From IMG/VR virus record IMGVR_UViG_3300043411_000628, positions 1 to 42,268 of that record: a stretch of DNA of 42,268 nt. One strand, written 5' to 3'. The translations under genes were made by a program, and so were the position numbers. This DNA comes from a virus. Positions 30,032 to 42,268 of this stretch are shown piece by piece. A model generated the notes under the pieces. It was given only the letters and a program-made list of their open reading frames with translations. It searched no databases and was not told where the DNA came from. Numbering within the stretch: the stretch's first letter is position 1; every line of letters starts with the position of its first letter.

Positions 30032-30229
30032 ATGGCTAACAAGATCCGTGGACAAGTAGTAGGTGGAATGACTCGTGACTTCGACGGAGTTAATACCGTC
30101 GCTGACATCGCAGCAGCTCTTGGAGCTGGCGACCGAGTGGCAATGGTCAATGGTCTGACAGCAGATCATTCAACCGTTCTGAAGGATTACGACTACGTGA
30201 CCTTCACTGATAAGAAAAAAGGCGGCTGA
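30032..30229 (+). CDS. Ubiquitin-like (ThiS/MoaD-type) protein ending in Gly-Gly
   Basis: A 65-residue beta-grasp protein. The order of elements matches ThiS/MoaD-like Ubls: strand (NKIRGQVVGG), strand (TRDFDGV), helix (VADIAAALGAG), strand (RVAMVNGLTAD), the loop 'STVLKDYDYV' (compare the 'T-LKDGD-V' of ThiS), a last strand, and a charged tail ending exactly KKKGG at the stop. A C-terminal Gly-Gly is what an E1 adenylates and joins to an E1/E2 Cys. GGGAGG precedes the ATG. It is bracketed by two intrinsic terminators and followed by E2-like, JAB and E1-like genes. I see it as the modifier of that pathway; sulfur-carrier use is the alternative. Confidence 0.85.
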   Translation: MANKIRGQVVGGMTRDFDGVNTVADIAAALGAGDRVAMVNGLTADHSTVLKDYDYVTFTDKKKGG

Positions 30230-30243
30230 GCCTTGCTCGTGGC

Positions 30244-30264
30244 CAGGGACGGCCCCTGTTTTTT
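30244..30264 (+). terminator. Intrinsic terminator between the Ubl and the E2-like gene
   Basis: Stem CAGGG (30244-30248) with CCCTG (30254-30258), 5-base loop, then TTTTTT (30259-30264). Placed 15 bp after the Ubl stop, it should lower transcription of the enzyme genes relative to the Ubl. Confidence 0.8.
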
Positions 30265-30292
30265 ATAAAATCATCATCACTGGGGAGTGAAT

Positions 30293-31660
30293 ATGTTGAA
30301 AATGACCGACGTGAAGTCGAACGACTTCGCATATTTCGATTCTATCGAAAATACACAGACAAGAGGGGCCGTTAAGGGCGCCTTCAGATACATTGTAAGC
30401 CTTTCAAACCTATCCGGCACAGCTATAGACCATTGGGACATTGAGTCAGTGTTTAAACACGAGGACAAATGGCTTACGGATAAGGGTGACATCAACCGAG
30501 AGTTCTTTAAGCGGAAGGATGCTGAGCCCGCCGCGATTTTGAATCTGCCGGAACCGCTCGTAAAACTGCTCGAGGTCCCTCTGAAAGAGGTTCACGGTCA
30601 GAATGTTCGGGAGATAAAGAACAACATCGCAAGTCGAGAGCGAACGATAGGCACCGCTCACCAGAACATCAGAGGAGCCGTCTCTGACCTTCGAAATTTC
30701 AGGCAACGACTGTTGGTTGCCGAGATTGCAGCAAAGGAATCCGTTAACACAGTCTCGACGCAGCTTAAGAAAGTTCTATCTGAACTTCCGCTTGAGCTTT
30801 GGAGCGTCACTTCCGACTGCGTTTCTTTCATTTGCAAGACCGACACGCTGGTCAATGCTCGAGACATTCCAAACAAAATCAACCGCACCTACAACCTTGG
30901 TCGACTGATCTTCCACGTAAACGTCATGGATTTCAAAATCACGGTGACGAGGATGGACATCGTCAATCGGTGGGTCTCGGCAAGCAACGCTCACTTCCAT
31001 TACGGAACGTACTTTTGCTACGGCGGGTTTTCTAGCGAGTTCGAGAAAGCTCAGGAAGAGGTCAACCTCTTCGATCTCATGTCTGCCTGTGTTCGATGGA
31101 AAGACACCTACGACGCAAGATCAACGCTGGTCTCGTCAGTAAGATTCAATCACCACCCAGCATTCACGACGTATCACGAAGGCGATGTGTTCTTTGGGAT
31201 GGACGAGAAGAAACAATGCGAAGAGGCATGGAGAGGCGGTCTGTATTTCACACAACCGATGACTTCTCCGAGCATCACCGCCGCGAATTTGAAGATCGGG
31301 ACTCAGATATCCCCATGGAGCAACGAGTATCCATTCGCTGCAAATGGCGGACCTCGGCCAGGATACAAATACGAGTACGACAAGCCGCTCGATAATCAAA
31401 TCAAAGCGATAGAGAAGAATCTTGAAGATGAAGAAAACGAAGGAGAGCTGATTGAGTGGTCGTTCATCGAATACTTAAGCTGGCTTAATTACAACTTCGA
31501 ACTTGTGGACTTCTCTCAAGGCGATTTGGCTCCGAATCGCAACGGATATCAACAGCACACTGCCTACGCCAATACAGAGACTGGCGAGTGGATGAGCGAA
31601 GATGAATGGGATGAATGGGACTCAAACAATAGCGCTGATGAAGATAGCGAGGATGCGTAA
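30293..31660 (+). CDS. E2-like (ubiquitin-conjugating-type) protein, candidate
   Basis: A 455-residue protein; the ATG at 30293 follows GGGGAG (a GTG at 30287 is also possible). An N-terminal domain is followed by a coiled coil (about 110-160) and then a region with an E2/RWD-like plan: helix, strands (LWSVTSDCVSFICK, RLIFHVNVMDFKITVTRMD), then SNAHFHYGTYFCYGGF. This H234-x-H236 then Cys242 stands where prokaryotic E2-like proteins have HPH/HPN then the catalytic Cys. A helix VNLFDLMSACVRWKDTYD follows, as in E2 folds. The acidic C-terminus (about 375-455) is Asp/Glu/Trp-rich. Gene order (Ubl, this, JAB, E1-like) strengthens the case. The alternative is a structural partner that binds the Ubl. 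Confidence 0.6.
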   Translation: MLKMTDVKSNDFAYFDSIENTQTRGAVKGAFRYIVSLSNLSGTAIDHWDIESVFKHEDKWLTDKGDINREFFKRKDAEPAAILNLPEPLVKLLEVPLKEVHGQNVREIKNNIASRERTIGTAHQNIRGAVSDLRNFRQRLLVAEIAAKESVNTVSTQLKKVLSELPLELWSVTSDCVSFICKTDTLVNARDIPNKINRTYNLGRLIFHVNVMDFKITVTRMDIVNRWVSASNAHFHYGTYFCYGGFSSEFEKAQEEVNLFDLMSACVRWKDTYDARSTLVSSVRFNHHPAFTTYHEGDVFFGMDEKKQCEEAWRGGLYFTQPMTSPSITAANLKIGTQISPWSNEYPFAANGGPRPGYKYEYDKPLDNQIKAIEKNLEDEENEGELIEWSFIEYLSWLNYNFELVDFSQGDLAPNRNGYQQHTAYANTETGEWMSEDEWDEWDSNNSADEDSEDA

Positions 31661-32616
31661 TGAACAAACCAAAATTAATTATTCCAAGGGCGGTTTTCGA
31701 TAAGGTCCTGCACTGGTGTATCCTAGCCAAAGGGCTTGAGATCAGCGGACTTGGCAAGTGTGATTACGATCCAAAGACAAACACCTTTAAGGTTGTCGAC
31801 GCTCAAGTTCTCAAGCAGTCGATTCAGACTGCCGGGAATACCGAGATCACAGCGGAAGCCATCGGAAAGTTTCTTTACGACACACGAGACCAAGGTTCAG
31901 TCACTTGGTGGTGGCATTCTCATCACAGCATGGGTGCGTTTTGGTCGTCGACTGACATCGATTGCATCGACTCATTCGGCAAAGAGGGTGGCGTTGTGGC
32001 CACGGTGTTCAACAATAAAGGCGAGCACCTGTCTGCGTGCCAATTCAAAAGCTCTACCATGTTTGGAGAGACTTCGATCTTTCACGACAAGCTAGACACT
32101 TCAGTGGTCACTTACTACGACACGACCATGTTTGATGAGTGGGAACGCGAGTACAATGAAGCGAAATTGGTTTACGTCCCAACACAAACTGCGTGGAACT
32201 ATAGCCAACAGCATGGAACAAAACGAAAGAAGCCACCAAAGAAGCTTCGAAAGTTATGGGACAAGATCCCCGAGTGGCGACGAAGGCAACTCATCTTCGA
32301 ACAGCCTGGCGGCAAGAACAGCCCAGACTGGATCTGGGCTTCTTATCTCTCCGACTACATTGAGGCCACGGAATACGACTACAAGGTAAGGGATCTGGTT
32401 GAGCACGCAGACCTTCCGAAAGAGGTCGGAACTGTCGCTAGCAGCCTTCTGGACCCAAGAGAATTGACCGACATCGAGGACGACGAAGAGATCACAGCCG
32501 ACGAGCGACAGTTGATTAACACATGGGGGATCTCCGAGTCGGAGTGGATGAATATGGAACCAAGAGAGCGCGAATATTACAAAGACCAAACTTACATGGC
32601 CTACATGGGAGACTAA
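31660..32616 (+). CDS. JAB/JAMM-domain isopeptidase
   Basis: A 318-residue protein with a full JAMM signature: Glu27 in LEISGLGK, then WWWHSHHSMGAFWSSTD, i.e. His86-x-His88-x7-Ser96-x-x-Asp99, the zinc and catalytic residues of Mov34/JAB peptidases. These cut bonds after the C-terminal Gly of ubiquitin-like proteins, or trim Ubl precursors. About 150 further residues, partly basic (KRKKPPKKLRKLWDK) and partly acidic, are unusual for prokaryotic JAB proteins and may bind substrate. The start overlaps the previous stop (TAATG), so it is coupled to the E2-like gene; the E1-like gene starts one base after its stop. Confidence 0.88.
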   Translation: MNKPKLIIPRAVFDKVLHWCILAKGLEISGLGKCDYDPKTNTFKVVDAQVLKQSIQTAGNTEITAEAIGKFLYDTRDQGSVTWWWHSHHSMGAFWSSTDIDCIDSFGKEGGVVATVFNNKGEHLSACQFKSSTMFGETSIFHDKLDTSVVTYYDTTMFDEWEREYNEAKLVYVPTQTAWNYSQQHGTKRKKPPKKLRKLWDKIPEWRRRQLIFEQPGGKNSPDWIWASYLSDYIEATEYDYKVRDLVEHADLPKEVGTVASSLLDPRELTDIEDDEEITADERQLINTWGISESEWMNMEPREREYYKDQTYMAYMGD

Positions 32617-32617
32617 G

Positions 32618-33307
32618 ATGCTGAGCAAAGACACAAGAGAAGCGATGCTGACCCGTCAGCTCGACTTCATTCCGATGGATACACTTGGAAAAGAGATCAA
32701 CATTGTGGGCGCCGGAGCCATTGGCTCATGGGTCGCACTGTCTCTTGCGAAAATGGGGTTCGTTGACATCACCGTGTGGGATGATGACGAGGTCTCGATT
32801 GAAAATATGAACTGCCAATTTTATCCGATCTCCATGATCGGGCGGCCCAAGGTTGATGCCCTGGCTGACATGGTTTCGATGTTCACCGGCACGCAGATAC
32901 AGACCAGGCGGCGTTATGAGGGCCAGCCTTTAAACGGTATTGTAATCAGTGCCCTCGACAACATGGCAACGCGGCGTCTGATCTTCGATAAACGGGTGGC
33001 TGGGACCACTTGGATTGTCGACCCCAGGATGAGCCTTGAGGCCGCGTCTTTATTTAACTGCAACGTCCGAGACCCAGCGTCTGTCGCGGCATACGACAAG
33101 ACGTTCTATTCGGATAGCGAAGCAGTTCAAGAGCGGTGCACCGCGAAATCAACCATCTACACAGCGAACCTGATCGCAGGTCTTGTGTGTAAGTCAGTGA
33201 AGGACATCGCTACCGATGGCAAAGCTGACGAGCTGATTCGAAATGCTGAGTGGCATATCGGAAAGAACCAACTAATGGCATGGCAGACAAACGGAACAAT
33301 GAACTAA
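32618..33307 (+). CDS. ThiF/E1-like adenylyltransferase
   Basis: A 229-residue protein with the E1/MoeB/ThiF nucleotide loop NIVGAGAIGSW (29-38), VWDDDEVSIENMNCQFYP (54-70; the usual D-D-V--SNLNRQ motif with Asp57, Asn65 and Gln67), GRPKVDAL (75-82), ISALDNMATRR (110-120; compare DATDNFAAR) and ERCTAKSTIYTANLIAG (172-188), where Cys174 sits at the crossover-loop position as candidate thioester Cys. It lacks CxxC zinc pairs and any rhodanese or UFD domain, so it is a minimal E1. It should adenylate the Gly-Gly tail of the Ubl at 30032. Confidence 0.88.
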   Translation: MLSKDTREAMLTRQLDFIPMDTLGKEINIVGAGAIGSWVALSLAKMGFVDITVWDDDEVSIENMNCQFYPISMIGRPKVDALADMVSMFTGTQIQTRRRYEGQPLNGIVISALDNMATRRLIFDKRVAGTTWIVDPRMSLEAASLFNCNVRDPASVAAYDKTFYSDSEAVQERCTAKSTIYTANLIAGLVCKSVKDIATDGKADELIRNAEWHIGKNQLMAWQTNGTMN

Positions 33308-33639: not shown

Positions 33640-33916
33640 CGTTTACGAGCGCATTGATGAAATCAGAAACGAAATCTATGCGCTTGTTCGTGAGGTTCAG
33701 CTCCTACCTGGGGCTGACTCCTCTCGTCTTGCGTCATACTGTCACCGCGAATTGAGTCCAGCCTTTGATTCGCTGGCATACACTGGAGGAATTAGTGACC
33801 GAGCTAGAGATACAATCGTTGATCGACAGGACCGTGCTATCGAGGACGGACATGCAGCCGTCGGACTCAGTGGCCCTGAGGATGTCAGCGGCAGGGGATT
33901 GCCCAAGACTTCTTGA
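33632..33916 (+). CDS. Hypothetical protein overlapping the exonuclease gene
   Basis: A 94-residue ORF starting with an ATG overlapping the previous stop. Residues 1-50 (VYERIDEIRNEIYALVREVQ, then LLPGADSS) look like a real helical protein, while the last 40 residues overlap the exonuclease gene by 122 bp and look like the shadow of another frame. So the gene is probably real but its end is uncertain. Confidence 0.4.
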   Translation: MRSVYERIDEIRNEIYALVREVQLLPGADSSRLASYCHRELSPAFDSLAYTGGISDRARDTIVDRQDRAIEDGHAAVGLSGPEDVSGRGLPKTS

Positions 33917-34700
33917 TTACAAACTACAGCGTGGGCGCGGAGAGACCAGCCTTTCGTCTGCGATGCGGCTCCTCACTGGGGAACCGATCCATGCTTTCTA
34001 TCGGGAGATTCTTGGTGCTGCGTTTGGCGATGCCTTTGGCATGGCCGAGCATGCGGTAGAGATCACACTCAAGAGCGGGACCAAGGTGCTTGGTCATTGT
34101 GACGGCGTGCTCTTGTATGAGGGTCTTGTGGTTGAGATCAAGACCGTGAGTGATTCGACCTACACGATGGTCAAGAATTCAGGCGAACCGCTCTCTTCGC
34201 ATAAGGCCCAAGGCAATATGTATTGCGGATCGCTTGGACTGAATGGTGTCCTGTTCATCTATCACAACAGGGATTCCGGCGAGTACCTGACCTACATCAT
34301 CCCGTATGACAAAGACCTGTTCGGCGCCACGGTTGAGAAGTTCAACATGGCTGACCGCCGGGCTGCGGCAAAGACCATGTGGCCAAGGCCATACCAAGAT
34401 CCAACCTGCTCTCCGTGTTTTTTCTGCGACTGGAAAGAGGACTGCTATCAAGGGTTTGACTCGCAAGTCGCGAGTGGCGATACTCGTGACGCCGATGCTG
34501 ACGCCAGCTCCATGGTGACTGAGCTTCTCTCCTCAAGAAGAGACCGCTTAGCTATGGAAAAGGTCGAAGAGAAGGTGAAATCTTTGCTCTCAACAAAGAT
34601 GATAAGTGAAGGTATCAAGGTATTAAAACATCCGAGCGCCACTCTCGAAGTGCGAGTAGGCAAGGCGGGCAATCCGCTCATCGGAATAAAGGAGAAGTGA
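33795..34700 (+). CDS. Cas4/RecB-type PD-(D/E)XK exonuclease with Fe-S cluster Cys
   Basis: A 301-residue protein with the RecB/Cas4 pattern: first Cys36 in AAGDCPRLLDYK, Asp103 in GHCDGV, Glu114-x-Lys116 in VVEIKT, Gln139 in KAQGNMY, and a Cys cluster (C205, C208, C211, C217 in TCSPCFFCDWKEDCY) that could hold an Fe-S cluster with Cys36. It should degrade or process DNA ends. I use GTG 33795 with GGAGGA upstream; ATG 33852 is an alternative. It precedes an SSB-like gene, which suggests a joint recombination/repair role. The phage homologue could also interact with CRISPR adaptation. Confidence 0.78.
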   Translation: MTELEIQSLIDRTVLSRTDMQPSDSVALRMSAAGDCPRLLDYKLQRGRGETSLSSAMRLLTGEPIHAFYREILGAAFGDAFGMAEHAVEITLKSGTKVLGHCDGVLLYEGLVVEIKTVSDSTYTMVKNSGEPLSSHKAQGNMYCGSLGLNGVLFIYHNRDSGEYLTYIIPYDKDLFGATVEKFNMADRRAAAKTMWPRPYQDPTCSPCFFCDWKEDCYQGFDSQVASGDTRDADADASSMVTELLSSRRDRLAMEKVEEKVKSLLSTKMISEGIKVLKHPSATLEVRVGKAGNPLIGIKEK

Positions 34701-37749: not shown

Positions 37750-38093
37750 AGCCGACGCACTATCACTGCGAATTCTGGAAACAGAGCTTTTGGTTCTGCA
37801 TTGGATGGCCGCACCAAGACATGGCCACTTACCTAAGAAAGAACTACGGCCATGACCCGGACCTTTCGCAGAAAGCCGGGACTGTGTTTGAGATCCCACA
37901 AAAGAGTGGCGCCACGGTGTACTTGGTTTGGACCAGGAAGAAGCACGCAGCCGTCGTCGCACATGAATGCGTACATGCGGCCAATGTCCTTCTCAAATCT
38001 CGAGGATGGAAACCCGAACTAGATAACGATGAACCCCAAGCGTACTTGGTTGAGGCGCTGGTATCGGCTGCGCTTGGACTAAAGGGGATGTAA
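37746..38093 (+). CDS. Small HExxH metallopeptidase-like protein
   Basis: A 115-residue protein with HECVH (73-77) in a helix AAVVAHECVHAANVLL, a zinc/catalytic HExxH pattern, and a downstream DNDEPQAYLVEAL where a third ligand (Glu96 or Glu103) could sit. A minimal zincin of the phage type; substrate unknown. The ATG overlaps the previous stop (ATGA). It lies before the RmlC-like gene. Confidence 0.65.
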   Translation: MKPTHYHCEFWKQSFWFCIGWPHQDMATYLRKNYGHDPDLSQKAGTVFEIPQKSGATVYLVWTRKKHAAVVAHECVHAANVLLKSRGWKPELDNDEPQAYLVEALVSAALGLKGM

Positions 38094-38527
38094 TGAAAAT
38101 GATATACGACAACAGGGGCTGGTTCTTGCCGCTTCCCAACAACACGAACGTCTCTTTCTCAAAGAAGGGCGTGTTTCGTGGGCTCCATGCGCAGACCAAC
38201 AAGCCGCAAGGTAAGCAGCTCCATCTCCTATCTGGGAGGATCACTGACTTCTTCGTGTCGCCAAGTGGGAACATTGGTTCGATAGATCTTGTAGCTGGCG
38301 ACAGCTTCTTCATTCAGCCAGGATTCCTTCACGGGTTCTATGCAATTGAGGATTCGATGCTGCTCTATGTCTGTGACCAACCATACAACCCGGAGTCTGA
38401 GATCGGTCTCCGGTGGACATACGTCATGGATCTACTGCCAGATATTTCATATGAGCACCCGTTTGAGCCGATCCTAAGTGAGAAGGACAAGGCGTGGCCA
38501 AAGGAGCTCAAGCATGTATCGAGATAA
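38093..38527 (+). CDS. RmlC-like cupin (dTDP-4-dehydrorhamnose 3,5-epimerase-like)
   Basis: A 144-residue cupin with the RmlC order: GVFRGLHAQ (His32), KPQGKQLHLLSGRITDFFVS, GDSFFIQPGFLHGFYAI (His80), LLYVCDQPYNPESEIGLRW and PILSEKD. These are the segments of dTDP-4-keto-6-deoxyglucose 3,5-epimerases. The protein is shorter than the usual 170-190 residues. No RmlA, RmlB or RmlD is present here, so it would act on a host intermediate or on a different keto-sugar. It starts with TAATG overlap and could work with the GT2 enzyme of block A to change host surface glycans. Confidence 0.78.
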   Translation: MKMIYDNRGWFLPLPNNTNVSFSKKGVFRGLHAQTNKPQGKQLHLLSGRITDFFVSPSGNIGSIDLVAGDSFFIQPGFLHGFYAIEDSMLLYVCDQPYNPESEIGLRWTYVMDLLPDISYEHPFEPILSEKDKAWPKELKHVSR

Positions 38528-39602: not shown

Positions 39603-42173
39603 CTAGTGTAGATCAACCCATGAGCCAGCCGCATAGACCTGGAGCTTATCGGTTGTTGTGTTGTAGAGCTGCATCCCGTCGATGGCAGCAAGGGCGTCCC
39701 GCTCAGCCGTTGTCATCCTTGCATTGACGAATGCCTTGGCTGTGGACTTTATCTCAAGAGCAACGCTTGCATTGGTAACGGTGTCGTCCGTGCCTGCCGC
39801 TCCACCGATAAGCAGGTTGCCTGCAAAGTAATTGTTCTTTCCCGGCCTATCGTAGAATCCCCAGGTCGTGATCCCGGGGTCGCCGAAAGGAAGGTCGAAC
39901 AGGTAGCCGTAAAGATTGTTGACCGTGGTCACGCCATTTGGAATGGCAAGTGATTTACAAAGACCGACTTCGTCAACCGTTCCGCCGCCAGCTCCAGCGT
40001 CAAGACTCAGGGCGAACAGCGCGCCGTACACTCTATCGAGAGTTGACCCTGCGCCCATTGTCAGTACAGCAGGGAGGCCGAGTGCCGCGACGCCAATGAA
40101 AGATGTACCAACGGTGGCGTTGTCGCCAATGTTGATGAGGGCTGCGGTGTTAACAGAGATTGTGTCGGCGCTGGTAAGGACTGCGTTTGCCGCAACGGTT
40201 GGGTTGGTGATCAGACTGTGGATTGATGACGGTGTCCCGCCCCCATCGACGAGTGGCTGTGAGCTAAAGGCATTGAGCTGTCCAATGGACAGTGCCCCTC
40301 CGAAGGTAAGACCTCCGGTAATCTCGACGTCACCATCAAGGTACGCAGCCTTCTTGTTTCCCGGCCACTCCCCGCCCGCGAAATTCACAGCGGCAAACGA
40401 TGTCTGAGCATTGCTACCAACGCCTGAGATCGTGACCGTTAGGTTTGAGTTGAGCGAAGGGTTGGCTTCAATTGCGGATTTGATCTGAGTTGCAGTCGAG
40501 GCGCCGCTCTCCATGTGAACGGTGACAAGCTGTCCTGAGATTACGGCTGTCTCGGAACCAGCGAGTACGTCGTTAACGTATTCGATTTGGTACGAGTCAT
40601 TGTCTCCTGGCTGCTGAAAGGCGATGGTCAGGTCCTGAACAACGAGGGACGACACGACGCCAGGATAGACCGTGACGCCATCCATGCTTACGTAGATTCC
40701 GTAGGCGTAATTGGCGTTCGTTGCCGTCTGGTTTATGCTGATGCCGTAGATTCCACCGCTGTTAAACGCGCCCCAGTTACCGCCAATAGCAAGGCCATAA
40801 CCAGAAGCGTTGCCATTAAACGTGGTGATCGTTGGGTTGATCGACAGTCCATTGTAATTGTTGTTGTTCCGAACCGAGGCGAGTGTCGGGGACGCTGTGA
40901 AAGAGTTGTACCCTGGTGACTCGCAAAGAATGTTTGAGAAGTCGTAGAAGGCGTTGATGTAGGTGTTTAGCGCAGCAAATGAGGCTGCGGCGTTTACGTT
41001 TGGCTGGAAGCCATAGCCCTGAAAAGGACCATTGACCTGGACGTTTGCGTTGACCTGACCGAACCCGAAGGCGTAGCCGAATCCTTTAAAGTCAATCGGG
41101 TCAGTGCCGTTCCCGATACTGAAGTTGTTTTGAATGAACTCGACCGAGCCCAAGTCGCCGGTGCCGCTGTGCACAATGTTGTGAGAAAGGAATCGGAAGG
41201 CTGTGCCTGTGGTTCCGAACTCAAACCCGGTTGAGGCAGGGTCCACGTTGAGCTGGACCTGTCTAGCGCACCACGTTTCATCTGGGGAGTTGGCGGAAGC
41301 GGAGAAATTAAGATTGAAGCGGTTGACGTCGAAGGTCCCGGCTTGATTTGACAGCGTTCGAGTTAAGTCGAGCTGTTCAAACCCAAGCGCAATGCCAACT
41401 TGAACTTCTTCCAGGGATTTAACGACGCCGAGGTTGTCTTTATAGACCAAACGGTCGTTTGTTCCGCCGATAGCAAGGGCTTGCAGCGCATCGAAGACCG
41501 CGTTTTGAGACGGAGCTACGTCGGTGACCCCATCGACAATGGAATCTTGAACGGCGGCTGTCTTGGCTGCTGCCGCGAAATCGGAAATCGTGGTCGAGGC
41601 CTGCGTCCCGGTGTGGTTTGAACGCTGAATCGAGAAGGCCTGCACTGCGCTATCTGCAATGGCCTGCGCTGTAGAGACTGGCTTGTTAACATCAGAGGTA
41701 TTATTGACGTTACCAAGGCCAACGTCGGACGAAGAGAGGGTGTGCCATTCAACGTCTAGGTCTAGGTTGCTGGCCTTTCTCAGGACCTGGCCGGTGGTTC
41801 CACCATTTGGAAGGTCGCCACCGCCACCGCCACCTCCACCTCCGCCGCCACCGGGCAATCCGTTCTCTGGGAGGACGACGTTTAGTTTATCGGCAAGTGG
41901 GTAGATGTCCCGGTCAAGACCGAAGTCAACGACGACGAACAAGGGTATGTCGTAGGCCTCGGCCAACGCATCGGTGGAGTAGAACGCAACGTCAAGGATT
42001 CCAGTGGAAACAACGGTGATCTCTGCTGGCTCCGCTTTTGTAATCAAACCGCCGGAGTCGTTCGGTATTTGAATTGCAATCCCGGTGTTGCCGGTGAAAT
42101 CGACGAGTGACCCGGACGGATCGAGGACATACAAACGAATGGTAAGGTCTTCGCCCTTTACGATTTGATACAT
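39603..42173 (-). CDS. Tail fibre protein
   Basis: An 856-residue protein that begins with a compact Ig-like domain (1-100; TIRLYVLDPSGSLVDFTG...), of the sort found at the attachment end of BppU-like baseplate/fibre proteins. Next come a polyglycine linker (twelve Gly near residue 115), fibre repeats (VGLGNVNNTSDVNKPVSTAQ, NHTGTQASTTISDF, PSQNAVFDALQ) and long beta-rich segments. It ends with MTTAERDALAAIDGMQLYNT, TDKLQVYAAGSWVDL, a familiar fibre-end motif. A module near 600-690 resembles the one in the gene at 9021. It starts at 42173, inside the terminal repeat, divergent to the first rightward gene, with little promoter space between. Confidence 0.85.
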   Translation of the reverse strand: MYQIVKGEDLTIRLYVLDPSGSLVDFTGNTGIAIQIPNDSGGLITKAEPAEITVVSTGILDVAFYSTDALAEAYDIPLFVVVDFGLDRDIYPLADKLNVVLPENGLPGGGGGGGGGGGGDLPNGGTTGQVLRKASNLDLDVEWHTLSSSDVGLGNVNNTSDVNKPVSTAQAIADSAVQAFSIQRSNHTGTQASTTISDFAAAAKTAAVQDSIVDGVTDVAPSQNAVFDALQALAIGGTNDRLVYKDNLGVVKSLEEVQVGIALGFEQLDLTRTLSNQAGTFDVNRFNLNFSASANSPDETWCARQVQLNVDPASTGFEFGTTGTAFRFLSHNIVHSGTGDLGSVEFIQNNFSIGNGTDPIDFKGFGYAFGFGQVNANVQVNGPFQGYGFQPNVNAAASFAALNTYINAFYDFSNILCESPGYNSFTASPTLASVRNNNNYNGLSINPTITTFNGNASGYGLAIGGNWGAFNSGGIYGISINQTATNANYAYGIYVSMDGVTVYPGVVSSLVVQDLTIAFQQPGDNDSYQIEYVNDVLAGSETAVISGQLVTVHMESGASTATQIKSAIEANPSLNSNLTVTISGVGSNAQTSFAAVNFAGGEWPGNKKAAYLDGDVEITGGLTFGGALSIGQLNAFSSQPLVDGGGTPSSIHSLITNPTVAANAVLTSADTISVNTAALINIGDNATVGTSFIGVAALGLPAVLTMGAGSTLDRVYGALFALSLDAGAGGGTVDEVGLCKSLAIPNGVTTVNNLYGYLFDLPFGDPGITTWGFYDRPGKNNYFAGNLLIGGAAGTDDTVTNASVALEIKSTAKAFVNARMTTAERDALAAIDGMQLYNTTTDKLQVYAAGSWVDLH

Positions 42174-42268
42174 GAGTCAATGATTGAATGCGGAGGAAGG
42201 AATGACAAGCCAGTTCAACGAATCAAAGAAGGAACTCTGGACGTCAGCCGAGAAATGGGTGCGGTTTC
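42144..42268. repeat. Terminal direct repeat, right copy
   Basis: Exact second copy of bases 1-125. It lets the tail-fibre gene be read whole on the right end and the first rightward gene whole on the left end, which supports joining the two ends into one circle. Confidence 0.9.

Follow-up and report, generated by a model that had tools for sequence, protein, structure and literature searches.

The locus examined here raises the question of whether a phage can carry, within four genes, a whole pathway for the attachment and removal of a ubiquitin-like protein (Ubl), and what such a pathway would serve. Prokaryotic Ubl conjugation is known as a bacterial defence (Bil, CBASS) and in the form of the PRTRC cassettes of plasmids. 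The locus lies in IMG/VR virus record IMGVR_UViG_3300043411_000628, of which positions 1 to 42,268 (the window, meaning the whole stretch of DNA analysed) have a G+C content of 52%. Positions 1–125 and 42144–42268 of this 42,268-base record are identical 125-base direct terminal repeats, and on this basis the window most probably represents a phage genome that is complete and terminally redundant, with PHROGs matches to a terminase large subunit, portal, major head protein and tail fibre. A first-pass annotation, made from the sequence alone, had placed a Ubl together with putative conjugating (E2-like), deconjugating (JAB) and activating (E1-like) enzymes in four consecutive genes at 30032–33307, and all four open reading frames (ORFs) were found there, co-directional and nearly abutting:

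30032–30229, plus strand: Ubl, a predicted single beta-grasp, SAMP2/ThiS-like modifier of 65 amino acids (aa) with a mature Gly-Gly C terminus (family profile against the PDB; C-terminal GG)
30293–31660, plus strand: putative E2-like conjugating enzyme, 455 aa (leave-one-out family match, E2-core profile against the PDB, AlphaFold2 models)
31660–32616, plus strand: predicted JAB/JAMM isopeptidase, deubiquitinase-like, 318 aa with a C-terminal extension (profile against the PDB; Prok-JAB)
32618–33307, plus strand: predicted minimal E1 with a single ThiF/MoeB-type adenylation domain, 229 aa (Pfam ThiF, 2.5e-20; best profile match UBA5)

The stop codon of the E2-like gene overlaps the JAB start (taATG), the E1 gene begins 1 nt past the JAB stop, and purine-rich ribosome-binding-like sequences were found at the Ubl and E1 genes. 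The E2-like protein was taken to start at the ATG at 30293, with a GTG at 30287 as a possible alternative. Together the four genes probably encode a self-contained phage-borne pathway of Ubl conjugation and deconjugation, the activity of which is predicted from sequence; some 3 kb of a genome of ~42 kb would then be devoted to a complete and dedicated Ubl pathway.

The existence of a family was established by scans of IMG/VR in which the E1, or alignments of E1 and JAB, served as queries and which gave ~40 loci and 31 distinct contigs including the window; profiles were built on the first five relatives and then iterated. The order Ubl-E2-JAB-E1 was found in 26 of the 31 distinct viral contigs. 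In the others, a contig end falls inside the JAB gene (L024), the E1 gene lies upstream (L030 and L034), no E2 is recognisable (L022), or the arrangement is E2-E1-JAB-JAB with no recognised Ubl (L031, the two JAB genes being at L031:7887-9717). A second, short E2 is found behind the E1 at L010:9600-10349, and a tandem Ubl occurs only in L030 (L030:6233-6643). Gene order is kept at 16–50% protein identity, and the catalytic residues are invariant across members with pairwise identities of 8–68%. Because the protein distances of the parts correlate over loci (E1-JAB rho 0.78, E1-Ubl 0.66, E1-E2 0.53; overall rho 0.49–0.78, p=0.001, to which shared phage phylogeny adds), the parts of the cassette appear to travel as a unit. 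The residues on which the predicted chemistry depends are as follows:

30992–30994, plus strand: E2 His234, at the position of the Asn in the HPN of eukaryotic E2s; His in 23/31 members (family alignment)
31016–31018, plus strand: E2 Cys242, the predicted catalytic cysteine, invariant and followed by an invariant Gly244 (family alignment)
31738–31956, plus strand: JAMM residues E27, H86, H88, S96 and D99 of the JAB (invariant in 36/36)
33137–33139, plus strand: E1 Cys174, candidate thioester cysteine, in (R/P/K)-C-T-A-K-(S/A)-T (33/34 members)

Among the four window proteins, significance in single-sequence searches was reached by the E1 alone, with one Pfam ThiF match (residues 26–190, 2.5e-20). 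The E1 profile searched against the PDB matched UBA5 best (4e-18), followed by TcdA, Uba1, ThiF, NAE, MoeB and Cap2. The adenylation residues, namely GxGAxG (G31, G33), D55, N63, Q67, K78 and D114, are invariant in 34/34 members, and the candidate catalytic cysteine proposed in the first-pass annotation can be assigned to Cys174, present in all members except one. The window JAB alone gave a sub-threshold match to Prok-JAB (0.012), a family which matches 34/36 JAB members, and the JAB profile matched Rpn11 (9e-13) and also JAMM1 in the PDB. The full JAMM signature that had been read from the window protein is complete (E, HSH-x7-SxxD) and was found in every one of the 36 members; beyond the core the protein extends for ~190 aa.

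The window Ubl ends exactly in Gly-Gly (...KKKGG), as had been noted. Alone it gave only sub-threshold matches, to TGS (0.016) and ThiS-like (0.08) families; the family profile matched SAMP2 (1e-8) and, more weakly, MoaD, ThiS and Urm1. Relatives end in VKGG, often with a short tail, and GG or GG plus a tail is present in 20/30 members. The matches to MoaD, ThiS and Urm1, and an E1 made of a single ThiF domain, would also fit a sulfur carrier that is thiocarboxylated by the E1 and only trimmed by the JAB, as in ThiS/MoaD-type pathways. This explanation is considered very unlikely, as the Ubl nearly always has beside it an E2-like gene of its own that codes for an invariant Cys, and as rhodanese, cysteine synthase (PALP) and MoaE were detected in 0/27 viral records (the complete window phage and 26 relatives) in which positive controls were found, host-encoded partners being possible.

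The E2-like protein was recognisable by synteny alone, because single-sequence searches of Pfam, NCBIfam, PADLOC, the phages collection and the viral scan gave no match to it. A leave-one-out profile from the relatives matched the window protein at E=3.4e-25 (residues 23–289). It consists of an N-terminal helical/coiled-coil region, a divergent E2/RWD core at residues ~147–290 and an acidic disordered tail, so that the extra domains suggested earlier for both this protein and the JAB are indeed present. Across the family Cys-x-Gly is invariant in 32/32 members and His-Pro-His precedes the Cys in most, the motif of the relatives being H-P-H-V-x(4-6)-C-W-G. Hence the earlier reading of H-x-H followed by Cys (H234-F-H236...C242) held for H234 and C242, which are kept, but not for H-x-H itself, as the family motif is HPHV...CWG. 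The form HPHV..(S/N)G..C is that of UBE2W (HPHVYSNGHIC), an E2 acting on N-terminal amines.

When the E2-core profile was searched against the PDB, all 51 matches at E<=1 were E2s, with the printed alignments covering HPN...Cys; these 51 are mutually homologous and hence not independent. The AlphaFold2 core of a typical relative had a pLDDT of 95 and a pTM of 0.88, and Foldseek placed RWD and E2 domains among its top matches, not significantly, while for the window protein UBE2W was the second match (probability 0.85, E 0.1). Foldseek against viral models gave no useful match. Prok-E2 families of Pfam matched 0/32 of the E2-like proteins and UQ_con was touched weakly by 4; as judged from sequence, they are a distinct E2 family for which Pfam has no model. 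Taken together, the evidence leans towards an E2/RWD protein that is divergent, keeps a conserved Cys and is best described as a putative E2. The profile and fold comparisons proposed at the outset thus gave significant results for the E1, JAB and Ubl (UBA5, Rpn11 and SAMP2) and weak matches for the E2 fold, and the description of a complete phage-borne Ubl/E2/JAB/E1 module stands with that difference in strength.

Several observations weigh against a functional pathway of this kind. The best PDB match of the E2-core profile is weak (E=0.016), as are the E2 fold matches (E>=0.04, TM ~0.4–0.5). The window E2 has Asn-Ala in place of the first His-Pro of HPH, with H234, C242 and Gly244 kept, and having lost this His-Pro it may be less active than its relatives. 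The Ubl ends in GA or AG, not GG, in 10/30 members. All 34 E1s lack the Arg of NxxRQ at the ATP site (the column of Cys66 in the window), with Cys, Asn, Ser, Gly, Ala or Thr found at this position; the residue corresponds to R73 in MoeB and R515 in UBA1 (PMC12355090). It could also be argued that the window E2-like protein has degenerated into a scaffold or an adaptor for targets, with conjugation carried out by the E1 on its own, much as archaeal UbaA conjugates SAMPs. The loss of H and P from HPH, the closeness of the Ubl to SAMP2 and the match of the JAB to JAMM1 are in keeping with this, but, as in every relative, Cys242 and Gly244 are retained, and the gene is intact inside the operon, and E2-independent conjugation is regarded as improbable.

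What was directly observed is gene order, family membership, catalytic-residue conservation and correlated divergence, and each chemical step of a conjugation pathway is inferred from these. On the basis of the invariant residues, the E1, probably as a MoeB/ThiF/UBA5-like homodimer, would adenylate the C-terminal glycine of the Ubl with ATP. The Ubl would then be passed as a thioester to Cys242 of the E2, via Cys174 of the E1 or directly, and from there to a target protein, by attachment to an amine. A separate ligase (E3) is probably not needed, since the long N- and C-terminal regions of the E2 itself can serve in targeting. Finally, the JAB would remove the Ubl and, where the Ubl of relatives extends past Gly-Gly, would trim the tail first.

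Among known systems, PRTRC shares its core order C(Ubl)-F-B(E2)-A(JAB)-ThiF with the cassette, as well as carriage on mobile elements and a related E1; in our view it is probably the type 6d neighbourhood described by Iyer, Burroughs and Aravind (2006). With PRTRC ThiF the E1 profile gives a match at 2e-16, and among plasmid matches none has a better E-value. However, the window E1 scored 36.5 bits against the NCBIfam model TIGR03736 (cut-off 144.75) and the window JAB 12.1 bits against TIGR03735 (cut-off 101.8), the best of the 36 JAB members reaching E=9e-4 against the latter, while hmmsearch did not link the E2 and Ubl to PRTRC B and C, for which hhalign gave probabilities of 2.6% and 0.8%. 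The Cys of PRTRC B is followed by THPN and has no HPH ahead of it, the C terminus of PRTRC C is AKG or a similar sequence, and PRTRC ThiF keeps the NxGRQ arginine that is replaced in all 34 cassette E1s. No ParB-related, E or F protein of PRTRC was present in the four-gene operon or recognised among the window genes scanned, the family scans having covered part of the window's genes. Capture by the phage of a reduced PRTRC cassette therefore appears quite improbable. The E1 tree is mostly unresolved, with cassette E1s not forming one clade apart from PRTRC, and it does not allow a recent common ancestry of the two to be judged.

All four kinds of component (Ubl, E2, JAMM deubiquitinase, E1) are likewise present in BilABCD, a bacterial ISG15-like operon, which acts on phage structural proteins and the gene order of which is, by name, Ubl-E2-JAB-E1. 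The Bil E1 combines a Cys domain with two adenylation domains, one inactive and one active; BilA contains two Ub domains, and BilB has a CEHH motif with Glu and two His downstream of the Cys (PMC11354881). In contrast, the cassette E1 is a 229-aa protein with one ThiF domain, the Ubl is a 65-aa single domain, and the E2 has no conserved Glu/His after the Cys, the conserved His preceding it (HPH-Cys). By the features compared the cassette is neither Bil nor PRTRC, despite its PRTRC-like order. CBASS type II Cap2/Cap3 and the 6A-MBL E1-E2-JAB fusions have a related E1 adenylation domain and a JAB, but they join E1 and E2 in one protein, and in Cap2 the CD-NTase takes the part of the modifier (PMC12355090), whereas the cassette has separate E1 and E2 genes and a true Ubl; no CD-NTase was found among the scanned neighbours of the window cassette. 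SAMP2/JAMM1/UbaA provides the closest solved Ubl, one of the JAB matches and a single-domain E1, yet archaeal SAMP systems work without an E2 (PMC11354881), a gene nearly constant in the cassette. UBA5, itself a minimal E1, is the best E1 profile match and the motif of UBE2W matches the E2; similarity over the full E2 sequence is marginal and no direct descent is claimed. The pathway is thus of a known kind, and what is new is the distinct E2 family, the minimal E1 and the viral or mobile-element home.

The cassette was also sought in 84,980 species genomes by two scans, one with the JAB, which found none, and one with the E1, which found 39 loci. Twenty seven of these (L048–L074) have the cassette in the same order, with all four genes in 20 and 7 cut by contig ends, and the rest (L075–L086) have other E1s only; the idea of a virus-only cassette was rejected on account of the 27. 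Most come from Myxococcales that are uncultured and have several copies in each genome, and in a sample of the phylum Myxococcota the E2 was found in 12/379 genomes in up to six copies. The Myxococcota cassettes look like parts of integrated mobile elements because of their neighbours. In one subtype these are a CHC2/Toprim primase, a SprT-like protease, a TrwB-like coupling protein and a replication-relaxation protein, in the second Rad52 and a PD-(D/E)XK nuclease, some with DUF6908, and tyrosine and serine recombinases lie close to several cassettes. In the phylum of a 'Lokiarchaeota' bin, 3/195 sampled genomes gave matches. One of these loci (L102:8731-11885 of G563) lies on a contig of 4.94 Mb, where a Ubl-like ORF with E2, JAB and E1 is embedded in a viral-looking run of numerous small ORFs of one direction, and a second Ubl-like ORF is at L102:3990-4235. 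In the E1 tree, the 'Lokiarchaeota' contig L048, 8 kb long, is placed within the viral sequences, and it may be a misbinned virus.

The neighbours in phages are of a similar kind. In the window itself, a Cas4-like exonuclease gene comes after the cassette. A primase-helicase and a SNF2-type helicase lie downstream of the cassette in four phages (L001, L015, L023, L025), and in three of these there is also an SSB-like gene, its function being a guess. In crAss-like and Flavobacterium phages (L043, L044, L046, L047) JAB-E1 loci lie close to UDG genes and to those of a primase, toprim or nuclease and are preceded by a candidate E2-like protein with an invariant HSH...C-x-G, which resembles the cassette E2 weakly (hhalign E 5.5e-4, probability 30%); the annotations of these genes read hypothetical, E1/ThiF or thiamine biosynthesis. 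In a Xanthomonas jumbo phage (L045:2736-6609) an E1 is preceded by a 140-aa protein that ends in ASGG and by one of 892 aa that contains HPH...CLG and is Cys-rich at its ends. A Ubl search in these crAss-like, Flavobacterium and Xanthomonas phages, run without a positive control, found none.

Because relatives adjoin primase/helicase, SSB-like, PD-(D/E)XK nuclease, Rad52, SprT and UDG genes, the likeliest targets are tentatively placed among the replication/recombination proteins of the element itself or host proteins on its DNA. The first-pass annotation had suggested a role in host takeover or anti-defence. In a reading of this kind the chemistry would be unchanged, but the Ubl would be attached to immune or metabolic proteins of the host or, as in Bil, to structural proteins of competing phages. 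Bil and CBASS Cap2/Cap3 are defence systems with related parts (PMC11354881; PMC10097602), and the window E1 matches PADLOC E1-E2 models. However, no defence genes were recognised beside the cassette in loci with scanned neighbours, the cassette is unlike Bil in every tested feature, and it is with replication/recombination genes that it clusters in phages and Myxococcota mobile elements. A defence, counter-defence or takeover function is accordingly rated as somewhat unlikely, nothing in its support having been found, and we lean towards a role in replication/recombination, although this link may be merely early-gene clustering. The fuller proposal, of a viral/mobile-element pathway which regulates the element's own DNA replication/recombination in a manner comparable to ubiquitin and SUMO on PCNA in eukaryotes, perhaps by N-terminal attachment as with UBE2W, and for which viruses were the vehicle of spread among bacteria and Asgard archaea, is more speculative still and is offered as an unlikely possibility.

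No description of the cassette was found in a search of open-access literature for phage-encoded Ubl systems, and none is mentioned in a 2021 survey that covered 224 jumbo phages (PMC7824862) or a 2026 jumbo-phage review (PMC13282480). Recurring as it does in numerous divergent viral contigs and, in multiple copies, in mobile elements of Myxococcota, the cassette provides a mobile reservoir to be weighed in the history of eukaryotic-type E1/E2/JAB systems, and with four small genes phage-run Ubl signalling and its targets become directly testable. Outside the cassette, a further gene of the window was assigned as follows:

33765–34700, plus strand: Cas4/RecE-like exonuclease (PHROG 1706 and 1990, 4e-21 and 4e-20)

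Further along, at window positions 38093–38527, there is a dTDP-4-dehydrorhamnose 3,5-epimerase-like gene (PHROG 8784, 1.7e-19).

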